From positions 1 through 64,000 of the forward strand of contig JAHLKC010000147.1 of NCBI GenBank assembly GCA_025449115.1: a DNA stretch of 64,000 nucleotides. The letters run 5' to 3'. Below the pieces are notes generated by a model. That model saw nothing but the letters and a program-made list of their open reading frames with translations, did not search any database and had not been told where the DNA came from. The translations under genes were made by a program, and so were the position numbers. Origin of the DNA: Chytridium lagenaria. Taxonomy: Eukaryota; Chytridiomycota; Chytridiomycetes; Chytridiales; Chytridiaceae. Below are positions 6,007-63,432 of this stretch, piece by piece. Positions within the stretch are counted from its first letter, which is position 1. Every line of letters starts with the position of its first letter.

Positions 6007-6014
6007 TATTTATA
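6007..6014 (-). promoter_or_regulatory. TATA-like box upstream of DM9 paralog A
   Basis: TATAAATA on the minus strand, 140 nt before the ATG at 5867 and correctly oriented. Position and sequence suit a core promoter with a 5' leader of about 100 nt; no transcript data support it. Confidence 0.45.
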
Positions 6015-24863: not shown

Positions 24864-24894
24864 CACCCATTCCCCCCTTTCATCGTTCCTTACA

Positions 24895-26370: not shown

Positions 26371-26439
26371 GGCACTTTTGAAGGTCCACAGTGTGCATCC
26401 ATCTGATCCTCATCATATACACTCCATCAACGCTACAAA

Positions 26440-38952: not shown

Positions 38953-39312
38953 GGGGTTACAGGGCTCTTTGTAATTATAGTAATAAGCTTAATAAATATA
39001 TAATGAACTGGTAAACGAGGACTCCAGAGGTGACGACTAATTAATACTGATGACAACTAACTTATATTAATATAGCTTAAAACAATACATTATGATATGT
39101 GGGTGGCACTCCTAGCCTTAAGGTCTTCTGACTGTGCATCCCTCATTGTCCCAAACTTAACAGAATAAAAAAACTACGGGCGGGGTTTGGAACATATCAA
39201 ACTGACAATTTTTAACTTAAGTAATGAAGGCAAGAATTTAGACGGGGCAACAAAAGACTTAGACAAATTTAAATGCGGGTGAGTAAACAAAATAGAAAGT
39301 TGAAACCCAACA
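38953..39312 (-). repeat. 3' LTR of copy 3 (LTR type C)
   Basis: Near-identical to the LTR at 48131-48487; the last few bases (TACA) of the canonical end are missing or changed at 38953. Confidence 0.8.
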
Positions 39313-39878
39313 TTCTCCCCCTCAGCTTTCTAAACGTGCAGTTTTACTCAGCTACTTTAACCATCCCAAACTTAGCGCGTAATTCTTCAAACTGAGTTCG
39401 CGGTAATGCTTTCGTAAACAAATCCGCAGGTTGTAACTTCGTGTTAAGGTATTCAACGCGTATCTTCTTCGCGTTAACTCTGTCTCTGATGACGTGAAAC
39501 CTTCTGTCCACATGGCGAGAACTCAGTGAAATGATTGGCGTGCTGGCTAGCGCGTTTGCCGTCGTGTTGTCGCCATAAATGACTGGTGCGTCGTTAAATG
39601 AGTATCCTAGCTCCCCCAGAAGCTGACTAACCCAAATCATATGTGATGATGCCTCACTCAAGGAGACATATTCAGCTTCGGCAGTAGACTGAGCCGTTGT
39701 CGCTTGCTTCTTAGTTCCCCACACAACAGCTCCCCCATTCAAAGTGATCACAAATCCACTAGTAGACTTCATGTCTGCCGGGTCCGTTCCCATGTTGGCA
39801 TCGGCATAACCCACCAATTCCAGTTTCTCTCGACGTGAGTATTGAATCCCCAGCTGCTTCGTTTGCTGAAGATATCCA
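38953..39878 (-). mobile_element. Detached 3' end of copia copy 3 (RNase H plus 3' LTR), on the minus strand
   Basis: Minus-strand RNase H (YADANMGTDPADMKSTSGFV..., stop at 39344), purine tract, and an LTR of the same subtype as 48131-48487, including the shared GTTTACTCACCCGC and GGAGTCC blocks. It breaks at 39878 in the middle of the codon series for ACGYLQQT-type sequence. Joined to the break at 57174 it restores the reading frame exactly, so it is the missing end of that element. Confidence 0.85.
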
Positions 39879-40277
39879 TGTTGGGTCTATTTCATCTTTC
39901 TATTTTGTTTCACTCACCCACATTCGTTATTTTGTCTAAGTTATTTTTCCCCCGAACCTATTTGTTTACGCGTTATTTTAAGTTTTGAGTTGATCAGTTT
40001 ATTGAGCTCCTCATTCCATTTGAGGAAGCGTTAATCCCTTTAACCTTATTACTTTATGTTTTATTTATGATACGTAATTGGAGGGATTTACGGGTCATGA
40101 GTTCTGGTGTAAATCCCCACCCTCTACATGTATTGCGAAAGTAGTTAACATTAATATATGGAAGTTTCGTAGTAATTACCTCCCTGTCACCGCTGGAGAC
40201 TCCATCACTATTCTTTATAGTTTAATTCCTTTATTAATATTATAATTTAATTACAATTGAGCCCCGTAACCCCTACA
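39879..40277 (+). repeat. 5' LTR of copy 2 (type A)
   Basis: 399 bp. Closer to the copy 4 LTRs than to its own partner at several diagnostic bases. Confidence 0.9.
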
Positions 40278-40291
40278 AGTGGTAGCACTTC
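40278..40291 (+). other. Primer-binding-site candidate of copy 2
   Basis: AGTGGTAGCACTTC directly after the LTR. TGGTAGC would pair with a tRNA ending GCTACCA. The same sequence follows the 5' LTRs of copies 3, 4 and 5. The tRNA cannot be named. Confidence 0.5.
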
Positions 40292-40394
40292 ACCTGGTTG
40301 GAAGGAGGAGTGAATCGATCCATTTGAGGGCCGAAGAGTAAAAGAGAAAAGAGCGTTTATCCCAAGAAAGAAAGCAAGCTGTCAACACGAGAAG

Positions 40395-43300
40395 ATGACG
40401 AAAGAAAACGACGACAAACCGGTGATGTTTGATGGGACACAGTTCCACATCTGGAAGTACCGCATGATCGGGTACTTGAAAGGCAAAGGCCTTTGGAAGA
40501 TCGTCGAGAAGGGCTGGACGCCCTATGCAGTCGTTGACACGCCTACAAATGCCGAAAAGAAGACTAGGTTAGAAGAAGAAGACCTGGACATGAAAGCAAA
40601 AGAGAATCGAATCAAGAGTTCACGACATCATCTTACCGTTGAACAGGATGAATCCACGGCAAAGGCGACGTGGGATAAAATATCGAGACCTATGAGAGAA
40701 AGGCTCAGACGAACAGAAACGCGATTAGACGCAAACTCACGAACTTGAAGATGAAAGAAGAAGACGACTTAAAGACTTACATCGCGGAGGTCTCGTCAAC
40801 CATTCAGCAACTGAAGGCAGCGGGGGAAGACACGGCAACCCCGCAACACATCTCCATCCTCTTGACGACCCTCCCGGAAGCATACGACATCATAGTCAAT
40901 CTCCTCGAGAACGAACCCAAAGCCGAGGCTGACTATGCCTATGTCGTTGGAAAGCTGTTAGATCATGAAACGAAATGAAAGAGAGAAAGAAAGAAAATGA
41001 AGAGAATGAAGGCGCTCAGGCTCACGCTGCGGGACGCTACAATAATCAACAACAAAGACACCGCGGCGGCGAGGACCGAGAATGCTACAATTGCGGAAAG
41101 AAAGGCCACTTAGCAAGAGACTGTTGGAGCGCGAGAAGAAATAACGACAACAGAAATGAAAGAGACAACGAACCCAAGCTCAACCTGCGGCTGCAGGAAG
41201 AGGCTTTTACCGAGGAAGAGGTCGCGGTGGTTTCCGTGGTCGAGGAGGACGCGGAAGAGGAGGTCGAGGCCGAGGTGGTTGGAATCGAGGACCTAATGCA
41301 AACCTGGCAAACCAAAACAACAATCAGAACATCAACAACGGAGGAAATCCTGTGGTATTCGTTGCAGCAGTACCTACCGTCAACATGAGCTCGGAAGGCG
41401 GTCCGCAGACTAGAGACACCAGATGGATGTTAGACTCTGGAGCCACTCACCACATGACGTTCCAGCGCAACATCCTGTCGAACTACCGCTCCATCCAGTG
41501 CAACATCAGCACTGCCGACAACAACAGCAATCTTGAATCCCGTGGAGTTGGTGACTGTGAAGTGAAGATTAGAAACGGTGAAAGAACAGGAACGTTAATA
41601 CTCAAGAACGTGTTATACGTACCAAACATCGGACGGAACCTGATCTCGCTTGGGATGGCGAGAAAGAAGGATCTTGACATATTCCCGAAGGACGACGGAT
41701 ACGACCTTAAACCAAAGAAAGAACCGTCAGCACAAGCACTTGCAACGTTCACCTACAGCAGCAAAGAGAACTCATTTACCTTGATCAAGTCATCGAATTC
41801 AAGCCAAGCACCCTCAGCAAAGGCGAGAAGCTCTGACACCGCACCAGTGGCACTTGCGGATGGGTCATCTAGGAAAGAAGGGAGTGAAGAAGTTAATGAA
41901 GGTAGCGAAGGGAGTCAAGATGACGAATGAAGACGACACTTACCTGTGTGAGGGTTGTGTTGATGGGAAAATGACAAGGACATCATTTCCTGACAAACCC
42001 GACGAGTTGAAAGCCAAGGAGCCTCTCGAGAAAATCCACGTTGACATCGTTGGACCTATGAAGACCGCGTCAAATGGCGGCGCACGTTACTTCCTCACCA
42101 TCGTCGATAGCGCGACAAACTACGTTACCGTTTACCTGTGCAAGAAGAAGAATGAGTCATTCAAGTTCATCAAAAGTTTTAAAGAAGAAGCCGAGAAGAA
42201 AATCAAAAGGAAGCTCATTGAAATCGTGGCAGACAACGGCGGCGAATTCAACAACAAACTAATGAAGGATTGGTGCTTAGAGCATGGGATTCGACTTACG
42301 TTCACCATGCCGTACACACCGCAACAGAACGGTGTTGCCGAACGGATGAACAGGACCTTGAACGAGAGGTCTAAAAGCATGTTAAGTTCTTCAAAACTCG
42401 AAACGCGTTTTTGGGGTGAAGCCGTGATGGCTGCAGCTTACCTCATTAACCGATCACCAACCCGAACGAACGAACAAGATGCAACGCCGCTTGAGAGATT
42501 CGCTGGAGTGAAACCTGACTTGTCGAGACTTCGTGGTTGGGGTTGCCTGGCACTCGTCTTGATACCCAAGCAGCAACGAAAGAAGGGAGATTTAACGCAC
42601 GACGGTGTGCTCTCGTTGGGTATGAGCCGCTGGGCTATCGCCTTTGGGATTTGCAAACGAATAAGTTGGTTAGAAGCAAGTCAGTGATTTTTAACGAGGG
42701 AGTAATGGCGGCGGAAGCAGAGAAGGGAGAATCAAAGTTTGAAGGGGAGGTTCAAGAATGGAAAAACGACTAGACTTACCGGATTACTCTACAGACTCGT
42801 CAAGCTCTGGTGGAGTGAAGTTGACACGGCGATAATGACGAAGAGTCTGAAGATGAAGATGATAATGTTAGTTATCATACACCCGATCGCGACGACGATG
42901 AAGATGAAGAAAGAGAGGAACCTCACTCACCTACGGTTCGTCGATCCGGTGGAAGAAGAGTTCCAAACTTCCGTGAAGACCTGGATGAGCCATACGAAAC
43001 ATCCCTTCGAAGGTCATCACGGAACAAGAAGAAGCCTGGAGAGTTTTGGACGGTTAGACCATCAGCAAACACGGCATCGTTAGAAGATGACGACGAACCA
43101 AAGACCTACCAGGAAGCGATGGGTAGGAAGGAGAAGGACGAGTGGAGGAAAGCGATGGAGGAAGAAATGAAAAGTTTGTTGAGATGGGAACATGGAGGTT
43201 GGTTCCCCGACCTAAAGGGAGAAAGATTATTAAATCAGGATGGGTGTACAAAACAAAGCGAGATGAGTTGGGAAATCTCGATAAACGAAAGCGAGATTTG

Positions 43301-44660
43301 TTGCTAAAGGCTACTCGCAGAAACAAGGAATCGACTATGACGAGAAATTCGCACCCGTCATCAAGCAAGCACGTTGAGAGTGATGCTTGCGGTCGCTTGT
43401 CAAGAAAACATGGAGATTCGACAATACGACGTCAAGACCGCGTTCTTGAATGGGAAGTTGGAAGATCATGAGATATATATTGAACAGCCTGAAGGATTCG
43501 TCGTTGAAGGGAAGGAGACTGGGTGTGCCTGTGCATGAAGAGTCTCTACGGACTCGTTCAAGCACCAATGTGTTTCAACACCGACTTGAACACGTCCAAG
43601 TCGACGAGGAGAAGTTTACTCGGTCAGCGGCGGATCCATGCCTTTATTACAAGCGAAACGGCAAGGATCTCACCTTGAAGGGAGTTTACGTCGATGATAT
43701 CATAGAAGCGTCGACGAGCAAGGAGGAATTAGATCGATCAGAAAAAACGATTCATGAGACGTTACCGAGGTACAAGAGCATCAAGTTTTCGATACGTCCT
43801 GGGGTGGCAATGTCGATATGATCGTGTAAAAGGGAAGATTGTGGTGTTCCAGCAGAGATACATCGAAACGATGGGTCAAAAGCTGGAATTACCGAAAACT
43901 CTTTTACACTATACTCCAATGGACGCCGTGAAGAAACTCCTGAAGAACATGGAAGGGGAGATAATGAAAACGAACGAGAAGAATCAAGGATACCGACAGT
44001 ACACTGGATCTTTAATGCATGCGATGATTGGAACTCGACCTGATATAGCATTCGCGCTTGGAATGAGCGCTAGGTTTCAAGAGAACCCTTACCCAGCGCA
44101 TTGGGATGCGCTTTTACCGAACTTGTGGATACTTACAGCAAACGAAGCAATTGGGTATTCAGTATACTAGAAAGGACAAGCTGGAATTGGTGGGATATGC
44201 AGACGCCGACATGGGAACGGATCCAGACGACATGAAGTCAACGAGTGGTTTTGTGATCACGTTAAACGGGGGAGCTGTGGTGTGGGGAACGAAGAAACAA
44301 GCAACGACGGCCCAGTCTACCGCAGAAGCTGAATATGTTTCACTTAGTGAAGCATCGTCACATATGATATGGGTTAGCCAACTTCTGGGGGAGTTGGGTT
44401 ATACGTTTAATGACCCCCCGGTGATTTACGGCGACAACACGACAGCAAATTCCCTCGCCAGCACGCCGATAATATCGCAAAGTTCACGACACGTGGATAG
44501 AAGGTTCCACGTCATACGAGATAGGGTTAACGCGAAGAAAATACGCGTGGAGTACCTGAACACGAAAGAGCAACCTGCAGACTTGTTTACGAAAGCTTTG
44601 CCGCGAACGAAGTTTGAAGAATTACGAGCAAAGTTTGGGATGGTTAAAGTGGTTGATTAA
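40395..44660 (+). CDS. Gag-Pol polyprotein of copia copy 2 (frame-broken)
   Basis: Start MTKENDDKPVMFDGTQFHIW. Gag (UBN2-type), zinc knuckle CYNCGKKGHLARDC near 41083, and RGRGG-type Arg/Gly region in another frame. Protease MLDSGATHHM near 41427. Integrase with CEGCVDGK, IVADNGGEF and TPQQNGVAERMNR. RT with VYVDDIIEAS near 43685. RNase H in 44106-44660 with VGYADADMGTDPDD and EAEYVSLSEASSH. Frame changes occur in gag (about 40610), near 40975, 41860, 42590, 42770 and within RT. It aligns almost base for base with copy 5. Confidence 0.88.
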
Positions 44661-44691
44661 AACTGCAAGGTTAGAAAGCTGAGGGGGAGAA

Positions 44692-45092
44692 TGTTGGGTT
44701 TATTCATCTTTCTATTTTGTTTCACTCACCCACATTCGTTATTTTGTCTAAGTTATTTTTCCCCCGAACCTATTTGTTTACGCGTTATTTTAAGTTTTGA
44801 GTTGATCAGTTTATTGAGCTCCTCATTCCATTTGAGGAAGCGTTAATCCCCTTAACCTTATTACTTTATGTTTTATTTATGATACGTAATTGGAGGGATT
44901 TACGGGTCATGAGTTCTGGTGTAAATCCCCACCCTCTACATGTATTGCGAGAAGTAGTTAACATTAATACATGGAAGTTTCGTAGTAATTACATCTCTGT
45001 CACCGCTGGAGACTCCATCACTATTCTTTATAGATTAATTCCCTTTATTAATATTTATAATTTAATTACAATTGAGCCCCGTAACCCCTACA
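44692..45092 (+). repeat. 3' LTR of copy 2 (type A)
   Basis: 401 bp. Agrees with the LTRs of copy 5 at the diagnostic positions checked. Confidence 0.92.
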
Positions 45093-45672
45093 AAGACAAA
45101 TTAGTAGGTTCACTTTCATTAACAGAAGAGAAGTAACGCTACGATCAAGAAGAAACGAAAACTCACCCATCAAGAGCCCTCAAAACACTCCATCCCATCT
45201 CCACTGACCCCTCTAATATTCTTCTCCTTCGCAACTGCATCCATCATATCCTCAAGCTGCTCATTTGTCGGCACCTTCCCATCCACAAGTGCCTTATAAG
45301 CCGCAATTAATCTCATAAAAACAGGTGGCTGCTCAAGCATCGACGACCTCCTATCAAACGCAGGAGCTCTTTGTCTGACTGTGCCCGGGGAAGGGTAATG
45401 CAGAGCAACGCGAGGGTCATGCGGAAGACGGGACTAGGACTCGCTGAGATCTCCACCGGTCCTTGTTGGGCCGAGGTAAGGTTGAGTGACGCGGCATCCC
45501 GATGGACCCGAGGAAACAGCACCAGTGATGTTTCCACCAACATTTCGGGAAAACTGGGAGGTATGAGATGGGGAAGAAGAATTGAATATGCACTTACAGC
45601 TTCGAGACGGTCTTTCAGGCTTTGAGTGTCAGCGGTGTGAACCCCACTCAGTTTGTAGTCTGCGGTAGGCAT
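45093..45672 (-). pseudogene. 5' exons of a disrupted host gene (other half at 62403-63432)
   Basis: Exon 1 from ATG 45672 (MPTADYKLSGVHTADTQSLK) ends in a GTAAGT donor. Exon 2 begins FSRNVGGNITGAVSSGPSG after a CCCAG acceptor and runs to a GTGAG donor at 45166. An in-frame TAG interrupts it near 45438, before RLPHDPRVALHYPSPGTV and LEQPPVFMRLIAAYKALVDG. The following intron is cut at 45093 by copy 2. Its continuation, with the same target duplication, sits at 62403 on the other strand. Joining them gives an 85-nt intron with branch-like CTACTAAT and 3' end TTTCTAG. Function unrecognised. The exon 2 stretch FMRLIAAYKALVDGKVPTNE has the feel of fungal helical-repeat proteins (HAM1-like), but I would not name it. 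Confidence 0.7.
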
Positions 45673-45839
45673 GGCAATGAAATTATGAAAAGAAGCAACA
45701 AGGGGATAAAGAAGCGGACGGGACAGCTTTTATAAAAAACGTTAAAGCCTAAGTGGTGGTTGGCCGTCCCCCGGGCTCTCCCGTCATGCATGATGGATGG
45801 ATGCCTCCAACTGGGTGACAATTTGGTGGAATTGATAAA

Positions 45840-46445
45840 TGGGCAATGCTTTCGTAAACAAATCTGCAGGTTGTAACTTCGTGTTAAGGTAATCAACGCG
45901 TATCTTCTTCGCGTTCACTCTGTCTCTGATAACGTGAAACCTCCTTTCCACATGGCGAGAACTCTGTGAAATAATTGGCGTGCTGGCAACAGCGTAGGCG
46001 GTAGTGTTATCCCCATAAAATACTGGTGGGTCATTGAACGAATCTCCCAGCTCCCCCAAAAGTGGACTAACCCAAAACATATGAGACAACACCTCACTCA
46101 GCGGAACGAATTCTGCTTCAGCTGTAAACTGAGCCGTCGTTGCCTGTTTCTTAGTTCCCCACACAACAGCTCCCCCATTCAGTGTGATCACAAATCCACT
46201 GGTTGACTTCATCTCTGCCGGATCCGTCCCCATGTTGGCGTCCGCATATCCCAACAATTCTAGTTGCTCTCTTCTCGATACTGAATCCCCAGTTGCTTAG
46301 TTTGTTGAAGATATCCTCAAGTGCGGTAAAGCGCATTCCAATGCGCAGGGTAAGGGTTCTCTTGGAATCTTGCGGCCCTACCCAGTGCAAACGCGATATC
46401 TGGTCGCGTTCCAATCATGGCATGCATCAAGATCCAGTGGAACGC
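45840..46445 (-). mobile_element. Copia family fragment (RT end to RNase H), minus strand
   Basis: The minus strand encodes YADANMGTDPAEMKSTSGFV, KKQATTAQFTAEAEF and YLNTKLQPADLFTKALP. Upstream pieces match the RT end (AYRTCGY/ALGRAAR-type region near 46320-46440). No LTR is attached. Several substitutions relative to the other copies mark it as older. Confidence 0.8.
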
Positions 46446-46696
46446 TTCCGAAACCCCCTAATGTCCGGGTTTGTCAATTTTGCAAACGGTTGGTCAAACA
46501 CGTTTGCAAAGATATTTAGCACTCATTTTAAACGGATCGTCAAAGTTTGCCGAGACCAAAAAACGATCTCGGCAAACTCGAAATTTTCAAATACATTTGC
46601 AGATTCTGGTCTTGCCCACGTTAAAAGCATCCCTTGTACGAAAGTGTCCGCCTTCTCAAAGATGCCGCCGGAACCCGTCACTTCCAAACTAAAAGG
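46446..46696. other. Non-element sequence, nothing recognised
   Basis: Contains short inverted words (AACGGATCGTC / GACC...CGATCTCGGCAAAC) but no recognised feature. Confidence 0.4.
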
Positions 46697-47026
46697 TGTT
46701 GGGTTTCGCTCTCTTGACTCACAAGGACGCTCAGGATCACTCGCACCATTAGTCCGCGGCGTCGGGCGCACTAGAGTGCTCTGGAATTTACGCGTCGTTA
46801 GAGTTGAGTGCGAACGCGCCCACTGGACTTCTAATTTACATTCTGGACTCATTTGAATTTCCACTTTGATTTACCTTCCTTGATTGGTTTATTTTCTTTA
46901 TGCCAGTTTAATTATAACTCTACCTGTTTGGGATTGGACATTCCCTTCACCCTTTTTTCTCTTTGTTCCCGTTAAGGCTTTTGGATTTGTTTACCTTTAT
47001 CTTTGGAGAACAAAACGAGTGAGTGC
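46697..47026 (+). repeat. Partial copia-B LTR
   Basis: Begins TGTTGGGTTTCGCTC and follows the LTR at 38374 closely for about 330 bp, then breaks into copia coding sequence. It has no downstream half. Confidence 0.8.
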
Positions 47027-47029
47027 ACG

Positions 47030-48093
47030 CAACAGGCAGCAGCTTACCTCATTAACCGTTCCCCAATCCGTACAAATGAAGTGACGCTACACAGCTTGAA
47101 ACATTCGCCGGAGTCAAACCGGCCTTGTCGAGATTGAGGGGGGTGTGGATGCTTAGCACTTGTTTTGATTCCCAAGCAGCAGCGGAAAAAAGGGCGATTT
47201 TAACGCGCGACACTGCGCTCCTGTTGGGTATGAACCGTTGGGTTACGCCTGTGGGATTTGGAAACAAACAAGCTGGTCAGAAGCAAATCCGTCATCTTTA
47301 ACGAAGGGGTGATGGTTGCTGAATCAGAGAAGGGAGATTCAAAAGTTTGAAGGGGAGGTTCAAGAGTGGAAAGCCGACTTGGTTTTACCTGATTATTCCA
47401 CAGACTCGTCAAGCTCTGGTGGAAGCAAAGCGGATACGGCAGTGGATGATGAGGAATCTGAAGATGATGAAGATGATAATGTTAGTTATTGTAGGGGTTA
47501 CGGGGCTCAAATGTAATAAAATATAATGAATTAATAAAGAGAATTAAACTATAAAATGGTGATGGAGTCTCCAGAGGTAACTTAAACCTACTTACGATGA
47601 AACTTCCATGTATTAATATTAACTACTTTTCGCAATACATGTAGGAGATGGGGATTTACACCAGAACTCATGATCCGTAAATCCCTCCTTTTACGTGTCA
47701 TAAACTAAACATGAAATAATAAAGTTAAGTGATTAACGCATCCTCACATGGAATGAGGAGCTCAATAAACTGATCAAATCAAAACTTAAAATAACGCGTA
47801 AACACATAAGGTTTGAGGAAAAATAACTTAGACAAAAAAAACGAATGTGGGTGAGAAAACAAAATAGAAAGATGAATAAACCCAACAGTTATCACACTCC
47901 TGACCGCGGCGAATTTGAAGAAGAAGATAGAGAGAACCCGCTCACCTACTGTTCGACGTTCTGGTGGTCGTCGCGTACCAAACTTCCGTGAAGACCTGGA
48001 TGAACCACACGAGACATCTCTTCGAAGATCAACACAAAACAAGAAGAAACCTGGAGACTTTTGGACGGTCAAGCCATCGGCAAAACGCCATCG
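47030..48093 (+). mobile_element. Copia fragment (integrase end to spacer), split by a solo LTR
   Basis: Pieces equivalent to the integrase end (AAYLINRSP, ATQLETFAGVKP-like) and the acidic spacer (SSSGGSKADTAVDDEESEDD, then RRSGGRRVPNFREDLDEPH-like). It is interrupted at 47490-47887; the two sides are continuous once the LTR and one GTTAT are removed. Confidence 0.8.
47490..47887 (-). repeat. Solo LTR, type A, with 5-bp target duplication GTTAT
   Basis: TGTAGGGGTTACGG...AAACCCAACA flanked by GTTAT at 47485-47489 and 47888-47892. A complete LTR without internal sequence, the product of LTR-LTR recombination. Confidence 0.92.
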
Positions 48094-48130
48094 GAGACGC
48101 GTATACTCACGCGTTAAACTCTCCATTACA
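48094..48130 (-). repeat. Short inverted piece of copia-B LTR
   Basis: GGAGACGCGTATACTCACGC and AAACTCTCCA are the reverse complement of the copia-B LTR around 38686-38722. It shows the copy 3 insertion site was already rearranged repeat DNA. Confidence 0.6.
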
Positions 48131-48487
48131 TGTTGGGTTTCATCTTTCTATTTGTTTACTCACCCGCATTTAAATTTGTCTAAGTCTTTTGTTGCCCGTC
48201 TAAATTCTTGCCTTCATTACTTAGTTAAATATTGTCAGTTTGATATGTTCCAAACCCAGCCCGTAGTTTATTTATTATGTTTTGGGACAATGAGGGATGC
48301 AACAGTCAGAAGACCTTAAGGCTAGGAGTGCACCCACATATCATAATGTATTGTTTTAAGCTATAATAATATAAGTTAGTTGTCATCAGTATTAACTAGT
48401 CGTCACCTCTGGAGTCCTTGTTTACCAGTTCATTGTATATTTATTAAGCTTATTACTATAATTACAAAGAGCCCCGTAACCCCTACA
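48131..48487 (+). repeat. 5' LTR of copy 3 (type C)
   Basis: 357 bp, TGTTGGG...CCCCTACA. Shares ends with type A but has a different middle (GACAATGAGGGATGC, GTCGTCACCTCTGG). Confidence 0.9.
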
Positions 48488-50205
48488 AGTGGTAGCACTT
48501 CGGCTGGTTGGAAGAAGGAGTGAACAATCCATTTGAGGACTAAGGAGTAGAGAACAGCAGAGAAGAGTGTGAGCATTGCAAGAAAGAAAGAATCAGTCCC
48601 AAGGCACCAAAGAAAGTAACCAGTCAACACGAAAGATGACGAAAGAAAAGGACGACAAACCTGTGATGTTTGATGGCACACAGTTCCACATCTGGAAGTA
48701 CCGCATGGTCGGTACCTCAAAGGCAAGGGCCTTTGGAAGATTGTGGATAAGGGCTGGACGCCCTATGCAGTCGTTGACACGCCTACAAACGCCGAGAAGA
48801 AAACTAGGTTAGAAGAGGAAGACCTGGATATGAAAGCAAAAGCGAGAATTGAATCAAGAGTGCATGATATCATCTTACCGCTAATCCAGGATGAAATAAC
48901 GGCGAAAGCAACTTGGGATAAAATTGTCGAGACCTATGAGAGAAAGGCTCAGACAAACAGAAACGCGATTAGAAGAAAGCTCACCAACTTGAAGATGAAA
49001 GAAGAGGACGACTTAAAGACTTACATTGCAGAGATCTCGTCAACAATCCAGCAACTAAAGGCTGCGGGGGAGGACACTGGAACCCCGCAGCACATCTCTA
49101 TCCTTCTGACCACCCTACCAGAAGCGTATGATATTATCGTAAATCTCCTCGAGAACGACCAAAGCAGAGAATGACTATGCCTATGTGGTGGGAAAACTGT
49201 TAGATCATGAGAAAATTAAGAAAGAAAAAGGAGAACAGAGGACAGGTGCTCAAGCTCATGCTGCAGGGAGACATAACAATCAGCAGGCAACGCGGAGGTG
49301 AAGACCGCGAATGTTTCAATTGTGGTCGAAGAGGACACCTGGCTAGAGATTGCTGGGGTGCTAGACGAAACATCGAAAATAGATACGATGGAAACAACGA
49401 ACCTCAAGCTCAACCAGCAGCAGCTGGAAGAGGTCATTTCCGTGGACGAGGACGTGGTGGATTCCGTGGTCGGAGGCCGCGGAAGAGGTGGTCGAGGCCG
49501 TGGTGGTTGGAACCGTGGCCCTAATGCAAACGTAGCGAATCAGAACAACAATCAAAACAACAACAACAACGGAGGGAATCCAGTAGTGTTCGTTGCCGCA
49601 GTGCCAACAGTCAACATGACTGGGGATGGCATGCTGCAAGCGAGAGACACTAGATGGATGTTAGATTCAGGAGCTACTCACCATATGACGTTTCAACGCA
49701 ACATCCTGTCAAACTACCGATCCATTCAGTGCAACATCAGCACGGCGGACAGCCAGAGCGAGCTGGAATCGAAAGGGGTCGGAGACTGTGAAGTAAAGAT
49801 TAGAATTGGGGAAGAACAGGAACGCTAATACTGAAGAATGTGTTATATGTACCGAACATCGGACGGAACCTATCTCGCTTGGGATGGCGAGGAAGAAAGA
49901 ACTGGACATCTTTCCAAAAGATGATGGCTATGATCTGAAACCGAAGAAAGGACCATCAGCACAAGCGCTAGCAACATTCACATACAGCAGCAAGGAAAAC
50001 CTCATTTACCTTGATCAACGTCGGAGTCTAAACCCAGCACCTCCGTTGCAAAGGCTGGGAAGCCACTATCGCCACATCAGTGGCACCTGAGGATGGGTCA
50101 TCTAGGAAAGAAGAGTGTGAAGAAGTTAGTGAAGGTTGCAAAGGGAGTCAACATGACAGATGAAGAGGACACTCACCTTTGCGAAGGGTGTGTTGATGGA
50201 AAGAT

Positions 50206-50527
50206 TGTTGGGTTTTACATCTTCACTTATATTCACGTGTTAGTTTTCGCTATTATGTTGGTTAATGACTCTTGGTCTTTCTACTGTTTGTTTAGTTACT
50301 TGGTTTTTGTTCTTCGTGTTATTCTCCATGTCATCGACTGTGCGGGAACTGTGCTGCGACTGTGCAGGCACAGTGATGACAACAGCGGCTTTGCCGACTG
50401 TGCTACGACTGTGCCGACTGTGCCAGCTCTTAGTATAAGAACTCAAGGTTTTCCAATGTAATAAAATAAGTGATCATATATATACATTTGTCTTTATTGA
50501 GCTCTAAGTACGCGTCAGGATCCAACA
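50206..50527 (+). repeat. Solo LTR of a different family (type E) with target duplication AAGAT
   Basis: 322 bp, TGTTGGGTTTTACATC...GGATCCAACA, flanked by AAGAT at 50201-50205 and 50528-50532. Removal restores the integrase frame (CVDGK-MTR). It contains a cluster of GACTGTG words (about 50336-50425), a TATAAGA near 50435 and AATAAAATAAG signal. No internal region of this family is in the window. Confidence 0.92.
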
Positions 50528-52115: not shown

Positions 52116-52513
52116 TGTAGGGGTTACGGGGCTCAATTGTAATTAAATATAATGAATTAATAAAGAGAATTACTATAAAGAATGGTGATGGAGTCTCCAG
52201 CGGTGACAGGGAGGTAATTACTACGAAACTTCCATATATTAATTTAACTACTTTTCGCAATACATGTAGAGGTGGGGATTTACATCAGAACTCATGATCC
52301 GTAAATCCCTCCAAATTACGTATCATAAATTAAACATAAAATAATAAAGTTTAAGGGATTAACGCATCCTCAAATGGAATGAGGAGCTCAATAAAACTGA
52401 TCAACTCAAAAACTTAAATAACGCGTAAACGAATAGGTTCGGGGGAAAAATAATTTAGACAAATAACGAATGTGGGTGAGTGAAACAAAATAGAAAGATG
52501 AATAAACCCAACA
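52116..52513 (-). repeat. 3' LTR of copy 4 (type A)
   Basis: TGTAGGGG...CCCAACA in plus orientation; differs from its partner at 56601-57002 by several substitutions and small indels, so copy 4 is not brand new. Confidence 0.92.
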
Positions 52514-52542
52514 TTCCCCCCTCACTTTCTAACCTTGCAGTT

Positions 52543-55500
52543 TTAATCAACCACTTTAACCATCCCAAACTTTGCTCGTAATTCTTCAAACTTCGTTCGA
52601 GGCAAAGCTTTCGTAAACAGGTCTGCAGGTTGCTCCTTCGTGTTCAGGTACTCCACGCGTATTTTCTTCGCGTTAACCTATCTCGTATGACGTGGAACCT
52701 TCTATCCACGTGTCGCGAACTTTGCGATATTATCGGCGTGCTTGCGAGGGAATTTGCCGTCGTGTTGTCGCCGTAAATCACCGGAGGGTCATTAAACGTA
52801 TAACCCAACTCCCCCAGAAGTTGGCTGACCCAATCATATGTGACAATGCTTCACTAAGTGAAACATATTCAGCTTCGCGGTAGACTGAGCCGTCGTCGCT
52901 TGCTTTTTCGTTCCCCACACCACAGCTCCCCCGTTCAAAGTGATTACAAAACCACTTGTTGACTTCATGTCGTCCGGATCAGTTTCCCATGTCTGCGTCT
53001 GCATATCCCAACCAATTCCAGCTTGTCCTTTCGAGTATACTGAATTCCCAACTGCTTCGTTTGCTGTAAGTATCCACACGTTCGGTAAAGCGCATCCCAA
53101 TGCGCAGGGTAAGGGTTTCTTGAAATCTAGCACTCATTCCAGGCGAATGCTATATCAGGTCTTGTCCCGATCATCGCATGCATCAAGGATCCAGTGTACT
53201 GTCGGTATCCTTGATTCTTCTCTTGTTTTCGTTATCTCCCCTCCATGTTCTTCAGGAGTTTCTTACGGCGTCCATTGGGGTATAGTGTAAAAGGTTTTCG
53301 GTATTCCAGCTTTTGACCCATCGTTTCAATGTATCTCTGCTGGAACACCACAATCTTCCCTTTTACACGATCATAGCGACATTGCCACCCCAGGACATAT
53401 CGAAAACTTGAAGCTCTCGTACTTCGGTAACGTCTCATGAACCGTTTTTCTGATCGGTCTAATTCCTCCTTGCTCGTCGACGCTTCTATGATATCATCAA
53501 CGTAGACGCCCTTCAAGGTGAGGTCCTTGCCGTTTCGCTTGTAGTAAAGGCACGGATCCGCCGCAGAGCGAGTAAACTTCTCCTCGTCGACTTGGAACGT
53601 GTTCAAGTCGGTGTTGAAACACATTGGTGCTTGAACGAGTCCGTAGAGGCTCTTCATGCACAGGCACACCCAGTCTTCTTTCCCTTCAACGACGAATCCT
53701 TCTGGTTGTTCGATATAGATCTCATGATCTTCAAGCTTGCCATTCAAGAACGCGGTTTTGACGTCGTATTGTCAAATCTCCATGTTTTCTTGACAAGCGA
53801 CCGCAAGCATCACTCTCAGTGTTTTTGCTTGATGACAGGTGCGAACTTCTTGTCATAGTTGATTCCTTGTTTTTGCGAATAACCTTTAGCGACAAATCTA
53901 GCTTTGCGTTTGTCGAGATTTCCCAGCTCATCTCGCTTTGTTCTGTACACCCATCCTGATTTAATAATCTTTCTCCCTTTAGGTCGGGGAACCAACTTCC
54001 ATGTTCCCATCTCAACCAAACTCTTCATTTCCTCCTCCATCGCTTTCCTCCACTCGTCCTTCTCCTTCCTACCCATCGCTTCCTGGTAGGTCTTTGGTTC
54101 GTCGTCATCTTCTAACGAAGCCGTGTTTGCTGATGGTCTAACCGTCCAAAACTCTCTGGGCTTCTTCTTGTTCCGTGATGACCTTCGAAGGGATGTTTCG
54201 TATGGCTCATCCAGGTCTTCACGGAAGTTTGGAACTCTTCTTCCACCAGATTGACGAACCGTAGGTGAGTGAGGTTCCTCTCTTTCTTCATCTTCATCGT
54301 CGTCGCGATCAGGTGTATGATAACTACATTATCATCTTCGTCATCTTCAGGCTCTTCGTCGTTTACCGCAGTATCAATTTCACTTCCACCAGAGCTTGAC
54401 GAGTCTGTAGAGTAATCCGGTAAGTCTAGGTCGTTCTTCCACTCTTGAACCTCCCCTTCAAACTTTGATTCTCCCTTTCTGCTTCTGCCGCCATTACTCC
54501 CTCGTTAAAAATCACTGACTTGCTTCTTATCAACTTATTTGTTTGCAAATCCCACAGGCGATAGCCCAGCGGCTCATACCCAATGAGAGCACACCGTCGT
54601 GCGTTGAAATCTCCCTTTTTTCGTTGCTGCTTGGGTATCAATACGAGTGCCAGGCAACCCCAACCACGAAGTCTTGACAAGTCAGGTTTCACTCCGGCGA
54701 ATCTCTCAAGCGGTGTTGCATCTTGTTCGTTCGTTCGGGTTGGTGATCGGTTAATGAGGTAAGCTGCAGCCATCACGGCTTCACCCCAAAAACGCGTTTC
54801 GAGTTTTGAAGAACTTAACATGCTTTTAGACCTCTCGTTCAAGGTCCTGTTCATACGTTCGGCAACACCGTTCTGTTGCGGTGTGTACGGCATGTTGAAG
54901 GTAAGTCGAATCCCATGCTCTAAACACCAATCCTTCATTGGTTTGTTGTTGAATTCGCCGCCGTTGTCTGCCACGATTTCAATGAGCTTCCTTTTGATTT
55001 TCTTCTCGGCTTCTTCTTTAAAACTTTTGATGAACTTGAACGACTCATTCTTCTTCTTGCACAGGTAAACGGTAACGTAGTTTGTCGCGCTGTCGACGAT
55101 GGTGAGGAAGTAACGTGCGCCACCGTTTGACGCGGTCTTCATAGGTCCAACGATATCGACGTGGATTTTCTCGAGAGGGTCCTTGGCTTTCAACTCGTCG
55201 GGTTTGTCAGGAAATGATGTCCTTGTCATTTTCCCATCAACACAACCCTCACAAAGGTAAGTGTCATCTTCATCGTCATCTTGACCCCCTTCGCTACCTT
55301 CATTAACTTCTTCACTCCCTTCTTTCCTAGATGACCCATCCACAAGTGCCACTGGTGCGGTGTCAGAGGCTTCTCGGCCTTTGCTGAGGCGGTGCTTGGC
55401 TTGAATTCGATGACTTGATCAAGGTAAATGAGATTCTCTTTGCTGCTGTAGGTGAACGTTGCAAGTGCTTGCGCTGACGGTTCTTTCTTTGGTTTAAGGT

Positions 55501-56482
55501 CGTATCCGTCATCCTTCGGAAATATGTCAAGATCCTTCTTTCTCGCCATCCCAAGTGAGATCAGGTTCCGTCCGATGTTTGGTACGTATAAAACGTTCTT
55601 GAGTATTAACGTTCCTGTTCTTTCGCCGTTTCTAATCTTCACTTCACAGTCACCTACTCCACGGGATTCAAGGTTGCTGTTGTTGTTGGCAGTGCTGATG
55701 TTGCACTGAATGGAGCGGTAGTTCGACAGGATGTGGCGCTGGAACGTCATGTGGTGAGTGGCTCCAGAGTCTAACATCCATCTGGTGTCTCTAGTCTGCG
55801 GACCGCCTTCCGAGCTCATGTTGACGTAGGTACAGCTGCAACGAATACCACAGGGTTTCCTCCGTTGTTGTTGTTCTGATTGTTGTTTTGGTTTGCCAGG
55901 TTTGCATTAGGTCCTCGATTCCAACCACCTCGGCCTCGACCTCCTCTTCCGCGTCCTCCTCGACCACGGAAACCCCCGCGTCCTCTTCCACGGAAAAAGC
56001 CTCTTCCTGCAGCCGCAGGTTGAGCTTGAGGTTCGTTGTCTCTTTCATTTCTGTTGTCGTTATTTCTTCTCGCGCTCCAGCAGTATCTTGCTAAGTGACC
56101 TTTCTTTCCGCAATTGTAGCATCTTCAAGTTCGTGAGTTTGCGTCTAATCGCGTTTCTGTTCGTCTGAGCCTTTCTCTCATAGGTTTCGATGATTTTATC
56201 CCATGTCGCCTTTGCCGTAGATTCATCCTGGATTAGCGGTAAGATGATATCATGAACTCTTGATTCAATTCTCGCTTTTGCTTTCATGTCCAGGTCTTCT
56301 TCTTCTAACCTAGTCTTCTTTTCGGCATTTGTAGGCGTGTCAACGACTGCATAGGGCGTCCACCCTTTCTCGACGATCTTCCAAAGGCCTTTGCCTTTCA
56401 AGTACCCGATCATGCGGTACTTCCAGACGTGGAACTGTGTCCCATCAAACATCACAGGTTTGTCGTCTTTCTCTTTCGTCAT
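52543..56482 (-). pseudogene. Gag-Pol of copia copy 4 (gag deletion, frame-broken)
   Basis: Starts MTKEKDDKPVMFDGTQFHVW at 56482. Protease RWMLDSGATHHM near 55780; integrase CEGCVDGK, IVADNGGEF, TPQQNGVAERMNRT (55352-54426); RT QYDVKTAFLNGKLE-like and VYVDDIIEAS near 53500; RNase H near 53130-52690 with several breaks. The gag zinc knuckle is lost with the deletion near 56120, so assembly of particles would fail. Confidence 0.85.
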
Positions 56483-56600
56483 CTTTCTCGTGTTGACAGC
56501 TTTCTTTCTTTCTTGGGATAAACGCTCTTTTCTCTTTTACTCTTTGGCCCTCAAATGGATCGATTCACTCCTCCTTCCAACCAGGTGAAGTGCTACCACT

Positions 56601-57002
56601 TGTAGGGGTTACGGGGCTCAATTGTAATTAAAATAGAATGAATTAATAAAGAGAATTATACTATAAAGAATGGTGATGGAGTCTCCAGCGGTGACAGGGA
56701 GGTAATTACTACGAAACTTCCATATATTGATTCTAACTACTTTTCGCAATACATGTAGAAAGTGGGGATTTACATCAGAACTCATGATCCGTAAATCCCT
56801 CCAAATTACGTATCATAAATTAAACATAAAATAATAAAGTTAAGGGATTAACGCATCCTCAAATGGAATGAGGAGCTCAATAAACTGATCAACTCAAAAA
56901 CTTAAATAACGCGTAAACGAATAGGTTCGGGGGAAAAATAACTTAGACAAAATAACGAATGTGGGTGAGTGAAACAAAATAGAAAGATGAATAAACCCAA
57001 CA
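56601..57002 (-). repeat. 5' LTR of copy 4 (type A)
   Basis: 402 bp. Followed on the element side by the AGTGGTAGCACTTC site (56587-56600, minus strand). Confidence 0.92.
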
Positions 57003-57174
57003 GAGATAACTAAAACAAACGAGAAGGGACAAGGATACCGACAGTATACCGGATCGTTGATGCACGCTATGATTGGGACGCGACCAGATATCGCGTTTGC
57101 ACTGGGAATGGCGGCTAGATTTCAAGAAAATCCTTACCCATCACATTGGGACGCGCTTTACCGCACTTGTGGAT

Positions 57175-57574
57175 TGTAGGGGTTACGGGGCTCAATTGTA
57201 ATTAAATTATAAATATTAATAAAGGGAATTAATCTATAAAGAATAGTGATGGAGTCTCCAGCGGTGACAGAGATGTAATTACTACGAAACTTCCATGTAT
57301 TAATGTTAACTACTTCTCGCAATACATGTAGAGGGTGGGGATTTACACCAGAACTCATGACCCGTAAATCCCTCCAATTACGTATCATAAATAAAACATA
57401 AAGTAATAAGGTTAAGGGATTAACGCTTCCTCAAATGGAATGAGGAGCTCAATAAACTGATCAACTCAAAACTTAAAATAACGCGTAAACAAATAGGTTC
57501 GGGGGAAAAATAACTTAGACAAAATAACGAATGTGGGTGAGTGAAACAAAATAGAAAGATGAATAAACCCAACA
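57175..57574 (-). repeat. 3' LTR of copy 5 (type A)
   Basis: 400 bp; agrees with 44692-45092 and 62002-62402 at diagnostic bases. Confidence 0.92.
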
Positions 57575-57605
57575 TTCTCCCCCTCAGCTTTCTAACCTTG
57601 CAGTT

Positions 57606-60600
57606 TTAATCAACCACTTTAACCATCCCAAACTTTGCTCGTAATTCTTCAAACTTCGTTCGCGGCAAAGCTTTCGTAAACAAGTCTGCAGGTTGCTCTT
57701 TTCGTGTTCAGGTACTCCACGCGTATTTTCTTCGCGTTAACCCTATCTCGTATGACGTGGAACCTTCTATCCACGTGTCGTGAACTTTGCGATATTATCG
57801 GCGTGCTGGCGAGGGAATTTGCTGTCGTGTTGTCGCCGTAAATCACCGGGGGGTCATTAAACGTATAACCCAACTCCCCCAGAAGTTGGCTAACCCATAT
57901 CATATGTGACGATGCTTCACTAAGTGAAACATATTCAGCTTCTGCGGTAGACTGGGCCGTCGTTGCTTGTTTCTTCGTTCCCCACACCACAGCTCCCCCG
58001 TTTAACGTGATCACAAAACCACTCGTTGACTTCATGTCGTCTGGATCCGTTCCCATGTCGGCGTCTGCATATCCCACCAATTCCAGCTTGTCCTTTCTAG
58101 TATACTGAATACCCAATTGCTTCGTTTGCTGTAAGTATCCACAAGTTCGGTAAAGCGCATCCCAATGCGCTGGGTAAGGGTTCTCTTGAAACCTAGCGCT
58201 CATTCCAAGCGCGAATGCTATATCAGGTCGAGTTCCAATCATCGCATGCATTAAAGATCCAGTGTACTGTCGGTATCCTTGATTCTTCTCGTTCGTTTTC
58301 ATTATCTCCCCTTCCATGTTCTTCAGGAGTTTCTTCACGGCGTCCATTGGAGTATAGTGTAAAAGAGTTTTCGGTAATTCCAGCTTTTGACCCATCGTTT
58401 CGATGTATCTCTGCTGGAACACCACAATCTTCCCTTTTACACGATCATATCGACATTGCCACCCCAGGACGTATCGAAAACTTGATGCTCTTGTACCTCG
58501 GTAACGTCTCATGAATCGTTTTTCTGATCGATCTAATTCCTCCTTGCTCGTCGACGCTTCTATGATATCATCGACGTAAACTCCCTTCAAGGTGAGATCC
58601 TTGCCGTTTCGCTTGTAATAAAGGCATGGATCCGCCGCTGACCGAGTAAACTTCTCCTCGTCGACTTGGAACGTGTTCAAGTCGGTGTTGAAACACATTG
58701 GTGCTTGAACGAGTCCGTAGAGACTCTTCATGCACAGGCACACCCAGTCTTCCTTCCCTTCAACGACGAATCCTTCAGGCTGTTCAATATATATCTCATG
58801 ATCTTCCAACTTCCCATTCAAAAACGCGGTCTTGACGTCGTATTGTCGAATCTCCATGTTTTCTTGACAAGCGACCGCAAGCATCACTCTCAACGTGCTT
58901 GCTTGATGACAGGTGCAAATTTCTCGTCATAGTCGATTCCTTGTTTCTGCGAGTAGCCTTTAGCAACAAATCTCGCTTTTCGTTTATCGAGATTACCCAA
59001 CTCATCTCGCTTTGTTTTGTACACCCATCCTGATTTAATAATCTTTCTCCCTTTAGGTCGGGGAACCAACCTCCATGTTCCCATCTCAACCAAACTTTTC
59101 ATTTCTTCCTCCATCGCTTTCCTCCACTCGTCCTTCTCCTTCCTACCCATCGCTTCCTGGTAGGTCTTTGGTTCGTCGTCATCTTCTAACGATGCCGTGT
59201 TTGCTGATGGTCTAACCGTCCAAAACTCTCCAGGCTTCTTCTTGTTCCGTGTTGACCTTCGAAGGGATGTTTCGTATGGCTCATCCAGGTCTTCACGGAA
59301 GTTTGGAACTCTTCTTCCACCGGATCGTCGAACGGTAGGTGAGTGAGGTTCTTCTCTTTCTTCATCTTCATCGTCGTCGCGATCAGGTGTATGATAACTA
59401 ACATTATCATCTTCATCATCAGACTCTTCGTCATTAATCGCCGTGTCAACTTCACTACCACCAGAGCTTGACGAGTCTGTAGAGTAATCCGGTAAGTCTA
59501 GATCGTTTTTCCATTCTTGAACCTCCCCTTCAAACTTTGATTCTCCCTTCTCTGCTTCCGCCGCCATTACTCCCTCGTTAAAAATGACTGACTTGCTTCT
59601 AACTAACTTATTCGTTTGCAAATCCCAAAGGCGATAGCCCAGCGGCTCATACCCAACGAGAGCACACCGTCGTGCGTTGAAATCACCCTTCTTACGTTGC
59701 TGCTTGGGTATCAATACGAGTGCCAGGCAACCCCAACCACGGAGTCTTGACAAGTCAGGTTTAACTCCAGCAAATCTCTCAAGCGGCGTTGCATCTTGTT
59801 CGTTCGTTCGGGTTGGTGATCGGTTAATGAGGTAAGCTGCAGCCATCACGGCTTCACCCCAAAAACGCGTTTCGAGTTTTGAAGAACTTAACATGCTTTT
59901 AGACCTCTCGTTCAAGGTCCTGTTCATACGTTCGGCAACACCGTTCTGTTGCGGTGTGTACGGCATGGTGAAGGTAAGTCTAATCCCATGCTCTAAACAC
60001 CAATCCTTCATTGGTTTGTTGTTGAATTCGCCGCCGTTGTCTGCTACGATTTCAATGAGCTTCCTTTTGATTTTCTTCTCGGCTTCTTCTTTAAAACTTT
60101 TGATGAACTTGAACGACTCATTCTTCTTCTTGCACAGGTAAACGGTAACGTAGTTTGTTGCGCTATCGACGATGGTGAGGAAGTAACGTGCGCCGCCATT
60201 TGACGCGGTCTTCATAGGTCCAACGATGTCAACGTGGATTTTCTCGAGAGGCTCCTTGGCTTTCAACTCGTCGGGTTTGTCAGGAAATGATGTCCTTGTC
60301 ATTTTCCCATCAACACAACCCTCACACAGGTAAGTGTCTCTTCATTCGTCATCTTGACTCCCTTCGCTACCTTCATTAACTTCTTCACTCCCTTCTTTCC
60401 TAGATGACCCATCCGCAAGTGCCACTGGTGCGGTGTCAGAGTCTTCTCGACCTTTGCTGAGGCGTGCTTGGCTTGAATTCGATGACTTGATCAAGGTAAA
60501 TGAGATTCTCTTTGCTGCTGTAGGTGAACGTTGCAAGTGCTTGTGCTGACGGTTCTTTCTTTGGTTTAAGGTCGTATCCGTCGTCCTTCGGGAATATGTC

Positions 60601-61884
60601 AAGATCCTTCTTTCTCGCCATCCCAAGCGAGATCAGGTTCCGTCCGATGTTTGGTACGTATAACACGTTCTTGAGTATTAACGTTCCTGTTCTTTCACCG
60701 TTTCTAATCTTCACTTCACAGTCACCAACTCCACGGGATTCAAGATTGCTGTTGTTGTCGGCAGTGCTGATGTTGCACTGGATGGAGCGGTAGTTCGACA
60801 GGATGTTGCGCTGGAACGTCATGTGGTGAGTGGCTCCAGAGTCTAACATCCATCTGGTGTCTCTAGTCTGCGGACCGCCTTCCGAGCTCATGTTGACGGT
60901 AGGTACTGCTGCAACGAAGACCACAGGATTTCCTCCGTTGTTGATGTTCTGATTGTTGTTTTGGTTTGCCAGGTTTGCATTAGGTCCTCGATTCCAACCA
61001 CCTCGGCCTCGACCTCCTCTTCCGCGTCCTCCTCGACCACGGAAACCACCGCGACCTCTTCCTCGGTAAAAGCCTCTTCCTGCAGCCGCAGGTTGAGCTT
61101 GGGTTCGTTGTCTCTTTCATTTCTGTTGTCGTTATTTCTTCTCGCGCTCCAACAGTCTCTTGCTAAGTGGCCTTTCTTTCCGCAATTGTAGCATTCTCGG
61201 TCCTCGCCGCCGCGGTGTCTTTGTTGTTGATTATTGTAGCGTCCCGCAGCGTGAGCCTGAGCGCCTTCATTCTCTTCATTTTCTTTCTTTCTCTCTTTCA
61301 GTTTCGTTTCATGATCTAACAGCTTTCCAACGACATAGGCATAGTCAGCCTCGGCTTTGGGTTCGTTCTCGAGGAGATTGACTATGATGTCGTATGCTTC
61401 CGGGAGGGTCGTCAAGAGGATGGAGATGTGTTGCGGGGTTGCCGTGTCTTCCCCCGCTGCCTTCAGTTGCTGAATGGTTGACGAGACCTCCGCGATGTAA
61501 GTCTTTAAGTCGTCTTCTTCTTTCATCTTCAAGTTCGTGAGTTTGCGTCTAATCGCGTTTCTGTTCGTCTGAGCCTTTCTCTCATAGGTCTCGATGATTT
61601 TATCCCATGTCGCCTTGCCGTAGATTCATCCTGGATTAGCGGTAAGATGATATCATGAACTCTTGATTCAATTCTCGCTTTTGCTTTCATGTCCAGGTCT
61701 TCTTCTTCTAACCTAGTCTTCTTTTCGGCATTTGTAGGCGTGTCAACAACTGCATAGGGCGTCCAGCCCTTCTCGACGATCTTCCAAAAGCCTTTGCCTT
61801 TCAAGTACCCGATCATGCGGTACTTCCAGATGTGGAACTGTGTCCCATCAAACATCACCGTTTGTCGTCGTTTTCTTTCGTCAT
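57606..61884 (-). CDS. Gag-Pol polyprotein of copia copy 5 (few breaks)
   Basis: The start at 61884 (MTKENDD) is one base out of frame with MFDGTQFHIWKYRMIGYLKG. Gag continues through 61532-60888 with CYNCGKKGHLARDC. Protease and GAG-pre-integrase: 60924-60436 (MLDSGATHHM). Integrase through spacer to the RT start is one 470-codon frame (60302-58890), with IVADNGGEF, TPQQNGVAERMNR and KARFVAKGYSQKQG. RT-RNase H is one 414-codon frame (58893-57649), with VYVDDIIEAS and VGYADADMGTDPDD. Only about five single-base breaks separate it from a full-length polyprotein. It is the best reference for the family. Confidence 0.88.
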
Positions 61885-62001
61885 CTTCTCGTGTTGACAG
61901 CTTGCTTTCTTTCTTGGGATAAACGCTCTTTTCTCTTTTACTCTTCGGCCCTCAAATGGATCGATTCACTCCTCCTTCCAACCAGGTGAAGTGCTACCAC
62001 T

Positions 62002-62402
62002 TGTAGGGGTTACGGCGCTCAATTGTAATTAAATTATAAATATTAATAAAGGGAATTAATCTATAAAGAATAGTGATGGAGTCTCCAGCGGTGACAGAGA
62101 TGTAATTACTACGAAACTTCCATGTATTAATGTTAACTACTTCTCGCAATACATGTAGAGGGTGGGGATTTACACCAGAACTCATGACCCGTAAATCCCT
62201 CCAATTACGTATCATAAATAAACATAAAGTAATAAGGTTAAGGGGGATTAACGCTTCCTCAAATGGAATGAGGAGCTCAATAAACTGATCAACTCAAAAA
62301 CTTAAAATAACGCGTAACAAATAGGTTCGGGGGAAAAATAACTTAGACAAAATAACGAATGTGGGTGAGTGAAACAAAATAGAAAGATGAATAAACCCAA
62401 CA
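62002..62402 (-). repeat. 5' LTR of copy 5 (type A)
   Basis: 401 bp; one visible difference from its partner near the end (CGGCGCTC versus CGGGGCTC). Confidence 0.92.
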
Positions 62403-63432
62403 GTCTTTCTGTTTCTAGGTTGCTTCAGACTGTTAAAAAGATTGTGCATGAACGGAACCAGCTACCACTTACGCCTGGCGACGGGATCTATCGCCACGAA
62501 AGGAGCTGGGGCTGTTTCAGAAGCCTCTCCGATTGCTAAAGACGGAATGTCATCCTCCTATTTTCTTATTTTTCTCGCGTTTAATTATTGTTAATGTCTT
62601 GGATTCTATTTATCTTGCTAGCCATGTCAAAGATGTTTACCCTTGGCAAGGCGCTCGTGTGAACACGGATCCGAAATTCAGAAACTCGATGAAGACTTTG
62701 AACGAGTTGTTCCAAGAACTAACTTCTGCGGCGCGCGAGGAGGGGAAGAGCCTGGGAAGGCGTTTGCTGAGGTTTTGGGTCGCGTTTGCGGAGATGTGAA
62801 GGGATATCTTAAAGGCGCTAGGAAATGGGAGGCTGAGGAGGAGGAGGAGAGCGAATAGCAGGCTGAAGAGTATGGAGGGGAAGAAGAGGGGGGGAGGATC
62901 AGGAAGTCCCATTGAGAAGTAGTCGACGCAAAGGAGTTACTGCTGGAAGGCAAGCTTATATTTCCTTTTTTTTCCGTACTGTCTTTTTTTTAATTTCCTA
63001 ATGCATTTGAATTGTTAAAGGGAGGAGAAGGCGTCTGAGAAGAAGCCAAGGATTCATGCACAGGCTAAGGTTAAGTAAGTGCCATTTTTTCTACTTAATA
63101 TTTGCTTTAGATCGTTTATTGCGCTTTCTCTTGTTGACATTTGCCTCTTTTTTAAATATCAGGACTCATTCCCGATCAAAAGAAGACCGTCGAAGCACCT
63201 GAGCCCAGCAAGTCCAAGTCCAAGCAAATGGTTCTCGGAGCTGAGACCTGTCCTAGCTCCACAATGTCTGGACCGGCTGCGATGGATGCTCCACGTCGCC
63301 CTCACGCTAAGGCTTCACCAAAGCGCTCCGGATACAAGACCGAAGGTCGCCAAAAAGAGGCCAAGTTGCCCCCAAGTGAGGCCCCAGGCGAGTGGGGAGA
63401 GACTCCTATCAAACAGCAGGAGTCTCTGAGCG
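62403..63432 (+). pseudogene. 3' exons of the disrupted host gene (other half at 45093-45672)
   Basis: Starts with the intron end GTCTTTCTGTTTCTAG (62403-62418), then coding LLQTVKKIVHERNQLPLTP from 62419 and, in a shifted frame, IATKGAGAVSEASPIAKDG. A later exon near 62620-62860 reads DPKFRNSMKTLNELFQEL, then GDVKGYLKGARKWEAEEEE in another frame. Further Lys/Pro-rich sequence lies to about 63430. The region has several short GT-AG introns and frame breaks. The protein is not recognised. At about 63433 it fuses with the tail of another copia element. Confidence 0.55.

Follow-up and report, generated by a model that had tools for sequence, protein, structure and literature searches.

Inversion of a segment between oppositely oriented copies of a repeated element is a known kind of event. 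In inversion 2z3 of Drosophila buzzatii, copies of the transposon Galileo stand in opposite orientation, have exchanged their target duplications and are chimeric (PMC2775673). In Candida albicans, non-allelic recombination between long inverted repeats turns the intervening segment in one homologue (PMC6591007), and copies of retroelements are reported to have caused inversions between human and chimpanzee (PMC2603318). The locus described here lies in a window of 64,000 nucleotides (C147:1-64000) of the Chytridium lagenaria assembly, which comprises 41.9 Mb in 356 contigs. It shares with Galileo 2z3 opposite copies at the ends of the segment, exchanged target duplications, chimerism and empty sites on the uninverted chromosome. 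Galileo is, however, a DNA transposon with 7-bp duplications at the ends of a large cytological inversion (PMC2775673), whereas the window holds a copia LTR element with 5-bp duplications around a 12-kb block; only one of the two copies is visibly chimeric, and an empty site is seen at a single end. The Candida albicans case is similar in the length and spacing of the inverted repeats. Those repeats lie at the centromere and elsewhere, exchanged target duplications are not the subject of the part of the report we draw on, and the inversions were shown by PCR and Sanger sequencing, whereas the present case is known from the assembly alone (PMC6591007). The human and chimpanzee inversions involve L1 and Alu, in contrast to the LTR elements of the window (PMC2603318).

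The two elements, their flanks and the block between them are:

39879 to 45092, forward strand: copy 2, full-length copia-type LTR element, characterised by LTR ends, flanks, substitutions and LTR relatives
57175 to 62402, reverse strand: copy 5, full-length copia-type LTR element, characterised by LTR ends, flanks and domains
39874 to 39878, forward strand: ATCCA, left half of target duplication x, with its partner at 57170-57174
45093 to 45097, forward strand: AAGAC, half of target duplication y, with its partner GTCTT at 62403-62407
57170 to 57174, forward strand: TGGAT, the reverse complement of ATCCA
62403 to 62407, forward strand: GTCTT, the reverse complement of AAGAC
45098 to 57169: the block that is inverted when compared with sister contig C67 and with the ancestral order; the exchange proper is located within the two elements

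Copy 5 encodes Retrotran_gag_2 and zf-CCHC, then rve, then RVT_2. The family belongs to Ty1/copia by the order of gag, integrase and reverse transcriptase, the copia-type gag, the LTRs running from TG to CA and the 5-bp duplications of its relatives. Copies 2 and 5 are 98.5% identical over 5.2 kb on opposite strands. A preliminary description of the window had claimed that their four flanks are crosswise reverse complements; all four were re-read and none proved to be misread. Copy 2 is flanked as x..y and copy 5, along its own strand, as y..x, and flipping the block restores a perfect 5-bp duplication to each. From the 5-mer make-up of the window two random 5-mers are equal with P = 0.00116, and both crosswise matches would arise by chance with a probability of about 1.4e-6. 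All four element ends are free of extra bases and deletions, and both elements are full length.

The right-hand junction of the block cuts a host gene into two pieces:

45098 to 45841, reverse strand: piece a, upstream exons together with the initial part of the intron that copy 5 interrupts
62403 to 63016, forward strand: piece b, the end of that intron and the downstream exon

This junction could be compared with the sister contig C67, which is colinear with C147 in the same orientation over 1-34.7 kb (blocks of 96.5-98.9%) and 62.4-98.9 kb (blocks of 92.8-98.0%). Six forward blocks of at least 4 kb and at least 97% identity, outside 34-62 kb and leaving aside block 83539-98887 (94.6%) and shorter blocks, gave 307 substitutions in 36,101 aligned columns, i.e. 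a substitution difference of about 0.85%, and 268 indel events, 228 of them of one base, of which 149 stand beside the same base. We take C67 to be the other haplotype of C147 rather than a homeologue. Since C67:147642-149185 matches 46639-45094 reversed and runs directly into the match of 62403 onward, window 45094-46639 is turned round. Pieces a and b, aligned separately, overlap by 4 bp on C67, the fifth base being different (GTCTG for GTCTT), and copy 5 is absent from this join. On C58, which carries a paralogous locus, the same join is found with two bases missing and the order at the right junction is again unflipped. The host intron is whole on both contigs, as the preliminary description had expected it to be after flipping, and its suggested comparison with a sister haplotype thus yields the unflipped order at the right end. 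C67 shows the inversion directly for 45094-46696 and tests the right junction only, because copies 2, 3, 4 and 5 were not found on it at the position of the inverted block (nor copy 3 anywhere in C67:126500-153000) and because C67 is itself rearranged between 128.9 and 147.6 kb. The unflipped order with a single target copy on an uninverted chromosome is therefore seen at the right end (C67 and the paralogue C58); the left end lies inside copy 3.

The host-gene segment has features of its own. On both C147 (45098-45841, reverse strand, and 62403 to about 63440, forward strand) and C67 (locus L005, about 5455-7714) it is embedded with its introns in a copia pol, at the RNase H end and on the same strand, with parts of that pol on both sides. 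The same segment on C58 (locus L006, about 1941-3745, reverse strand) stands outside copia and looks like the source. It looks as if a gene had been captured by a retroelement together with its introns, and the arrangement was found in one allelic pair only. An intron of the segment contains on C67 (L005, 6816-7321) a solo LTR flanked by TTGAA on both sides, which is absent from C147. Another solo LTR, at 47490-47887 of the window (reverse strand) with GTTAT on both sides, sits in a copia pol fragment, and this fragment has inverted pieces of a different LTR family on its two sides (46697-47034 and 48083-48130). Elsewhere the window carries a U2 spliceosomal RNA gene at 24893-25097 (forward strand, 110.9 bits) and, at 26407-27174 (forward strand), a protein with four Kazal-type protease inhibitor domains.

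At the left-hand junction an older element is cut:

48131 to 52115, forward strand: copy 3, 5' LTR and first part, split by copy 4
52116 to 57002, reverse strand: copy 4, nested in copy 3, with the intact duplication GAGAT/GAGAT
57003 to 57174, forward strand: copy 3, pol piece ending at the exchange
38953 to 39878, reverse strand: end of the copy 3 pol with the 3' LTR, beyond copy 2 and on the opposite strand

The pol pieces of copy 3 (57004-57174, forward, and 39878-39300, reverse) have their matches in the pol of copy 5 at 4096-4266 and 4262-4838, so that, aligned separately, they overlap on the intact pol by exactly 5 bp. The 26 bases spanning the uninterrupted pol junction occur at 35 places in the assembly with at most three mismatches: 20 places show one mismatch, 6 show two, 9 show three and none is perfect. 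One of the 35 is at 46299 of the window. The backward control occurs nowhere. This agrees with the proposal that the reading frame of copy 3 becomes continuous after flipping. The further proposal that copy 3 thereby gains a matching 3' LTR is borne out less cleanly: among 40 places scored out of 235 candidates the best match of LTR 38953-39313 is the copy 3 LTR at 48130-48483 (95%, 549 bits), with a modest margin of 14 bits over the runner-up (535 bits, 93%), and copy 3's own target duplication is not recognisable, the 5' flank being TTACA and the outer end of the 3' LTR near 38949 degenerate. The exchanged flanks, the order on C67 and C58, the overlap of the copy 3 pol pieces and the junction present at 35 places lead to the conclusion that 45098-57169 is inverted in the C147 contig, as the preliminary description had stated for its 45-57 kb block.

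The distribution of differences between the two elements is uneven, and one stretch deserves separate mention:

43446 to 45092, forward strand: substitution-free tract common to copy 5 (57175-58821, reverse strand), with 0 substitutions and 6 one-base indel columns

All 51 substitutions between copies 2 and 5 lie in 39887-43445 (3.6 kb) and none in the final 1,647 bp; when they are counted as 36 clusters, a gap of this length appeared in 1 of 100000 random placements, with sites treated as independent. For copy 2 at 42000-43445 eleven other copies outscore copy 5, and at 43446-44691 the best match is copy 5, followed by C215:16049 and C96 at 99%. A comparison of 50 LTRs puts the 5' LTR of copy 2 at most one substitution away from three LTRs on other contigs; in it the 3' LTRs of copies 2 and 5 group with the 5' LTR of copy 5 (0-1 substitution, one private base), the next relative of this group being at least five substitutions away. 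Judged by these comparisons copy 2 is chimeric, with the 5' two thirds from one lineage and the 3' third from that of copy 5, and we propose that 43446-45092 represents a gene-conversion tract or a collapsed repeat. The 5' region of copy 5 has a 99% relative in two pieces at C215:17297-18690, and its best single match is copy 2, which indicates that the two lineages are close.

To see how other members of the family are flanked we surveyed 40 LTR places scored out of 279 candidates and read the flanks for a subset. Both outer flanks were read for 15 full-length elements:

C288:2119, C304:4981, C171:63855, C122:110678, C21:149038, C18:168021, C43:251903 and C36:47418: control elements
C13:232995, C10:283613, C18:190 kb, C18:181223 and copies 4, 2 and 5 of the window: control elements, continued

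Perfect 5-bp duplications were present in 12 of the 15, the exceptions being copies 2 and 5 and C36:47418 (TTATT/TTAAT). Several elements were left out of this set: C13:242009/246217, the latter an LTR with AAACG at either end, which resembles a solo LTR and stands in a complex array; C215:12197/1891, each with GAGAT as its flank, since their pairing would rest on that very match; C36:32932-43299, a tandem comparable at one end only; and elements for which a single flank was read, which ran off the end of a contig or which the script did not delimit. These last include C96, C9, C180, C74, C111, C142, C155, C255, C78, C28, C128, C109 and C24, and likewise the second element of C304. On C18 three elements alternate in orientation, roughly 8 and 3 kb apart, and each has its own duplication; as both inverted neighbour pairs keep their duplications, inverted neighbours are not always swapped in this assembly.

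The LTRs of the family are less informative. In elements with perfect duplications the 5' and 3' LTRs differ by 0 to 13 substitutions, so that the 6-8 of copy 2 are ordinary, and in many of them one LTR is nearly identical to LTRs elsewhere, as if exchanged between copies. The pairing of LTRs was tried as an independent test of the inversion and failed, as both 3' LTRs are alike and LTRs within elements elsewhere differ equally. LTR pairs of this family often do not cluster, unlike those of the Arabidopsis families tested, in which LTR pairs within elements are reported always to have clustered and this was taken as a lack of exchange (PMC545599). Runs of LTR/internal/LTR/internal/LTR in one orientation, as expected from unequal recombination, were observed at C36:32932-43299, C67:153921-160754 and C13:232995-246617.

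A second inversion of the same kind is probably present at C36:32850-52960, judging from the arrangement of its elements. The element at 47418 (forward strand) has the 5' flank TTATT and the one at 32932 (reverse strand) the 3' flank TTATT. Flipping the interval reunites an older element, whose duplication then agrees in four of five bases (GAAAG/GAAAA), and also the pol of another copia family, one piece of which stops, and the other begins, at one and the same lysine (residue 251 in the ORF from the window that served as query). We grade this case as probable because the fourth flank has disappeared into a fused LTR, the second piece of pol has decayed, and only repeats came up when a sister contig was sought for the block. 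The two C36 elements differ in 156 substitution columns, about 10 in flank bases and about 146 in the elements; the first 4.0 kb of the element accounts for about 137 of the latter and the last 1.2 kb for 9.

The explanation that we favour, with a probability of roughly 0.7, is that a break was repaired between the inverted copies, accompanied by gene conversion and a crossover, and that this happened on one haplotype. Such repair would start from two copies of one copia-type family that faced in opposite directions on that haplotype, separated by about 12 kb: copy A in the pol of the older copy 3 (target ATCCA) and copy B in the intron of the host gene (target AAGAC/GTCTT). Copy A would have broken in its 3' third and been repaired from B, with at least 1.6 kb copied from B into A, and the intermediate would have been resolved by crossing over, either in a single chromosome or between two sister chromatids. 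The segment between the copies would thereby be turned around, the 3' flanks exchanged and copy 2 left chimeric. By the duplications, the present 3' end of copy 2 was formerly that of B and the present 3' end of copy 5 that of A. Both are now of the B type, and in the LTR and internal comparisons the 3' part of copy 5 shows one lineage only, with no trace of lineage A, which the proposed conversion would explain. We infer that the event occurred in a cell and not during assembly, with A as the recipient and with crossover and conversion taking place together. The tract free of substitutions and the single substitution between the LTRs paired by B's duplication suggest that the event is recent, and, because the site of B is empty on C67, B and the inversion should be younger than the split of the haplotypes, unless the element was lost there without trace. 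The crossing-over between inverted retroelement copies read from this locus in the preliminary description is in accordance with the exchanged flanks and with C67 and C58; its caution that a join on the wrong strand during assembly would give nearly the same picture also stands.

Such an error is the strongest alternative, and we consider it unlikely but still to be reckoned with. The assembler would have merged the near-identical 3' thirds of the inverted copies and left them by the wrong exits, the chromosome itself having no inversion. This predicts the same exchanged flanks, and since a merged stretch receives one consensus, the substitution-free tract would be expected as well; residual one-base indels are also apparent in large number (228 of the 268 indel events, against the 307 substitutions). 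The six one-base indel columns in the tract, however, mean that it is not one copied consensus. The assembly, which contig sizes and the share of one-base indels suggest was built on long reads, kept matching flanks in 12 of the 15 full-length elements, held apart haplotypes with only about 0.85% substitution difference, and resolved nested and tandem copies as well as the two inverted neighbour pairs on C18, these without exchange. The pattern on C36, moreover, recurs between elements clearly different in sequence. Much less probable is a real inversion by another route, such as template switching in replication or end joining within the elements, with the tract coming from a separate conversion: tract and crossover need not be a single event, and LTR differences within elements suggest frequent exchange of sequence among copies of the family, but the clean element ends and full-length elements are what homologous exchange predicts. 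That there was no inversion, the flanks agreeing by coincidence after copies 2 and 5 lost their duplications by mutation or deletion, is hardly credible even with 3 of 15 full-length elements lacking a perfect duplication, given the chance of about 1.4e-6 and the independent agreement of the copy 3 pieces and of the order on C67 and C58, which refutes it.

Break repair between the inverted copies could have a wider meaning, although we hold this to be rather doubtful: a young copia family might repeatedly turn neighbouring segments, on one haplotype only, through repair with long conversion tracts, in a genome that would be diploid or dikaryotic. Should a culture contain both orientations side by side, local gene order would be switched reversibly by the two elements, and the contig would capture one of two states. 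In any case the locus is a compact and polarised example: it combines exchanged duplications with a sister haplotype still in the old order at one end, and adds a candidate tract of conversion as well as a second case in the same assembly. If it is an assembly error, exchanged target duplications offer a cheap test for false inversions in assemblies. If it is real, LTR elements make small haplotype-specific inversions, and the length and direction of the conversion tract can be measured.
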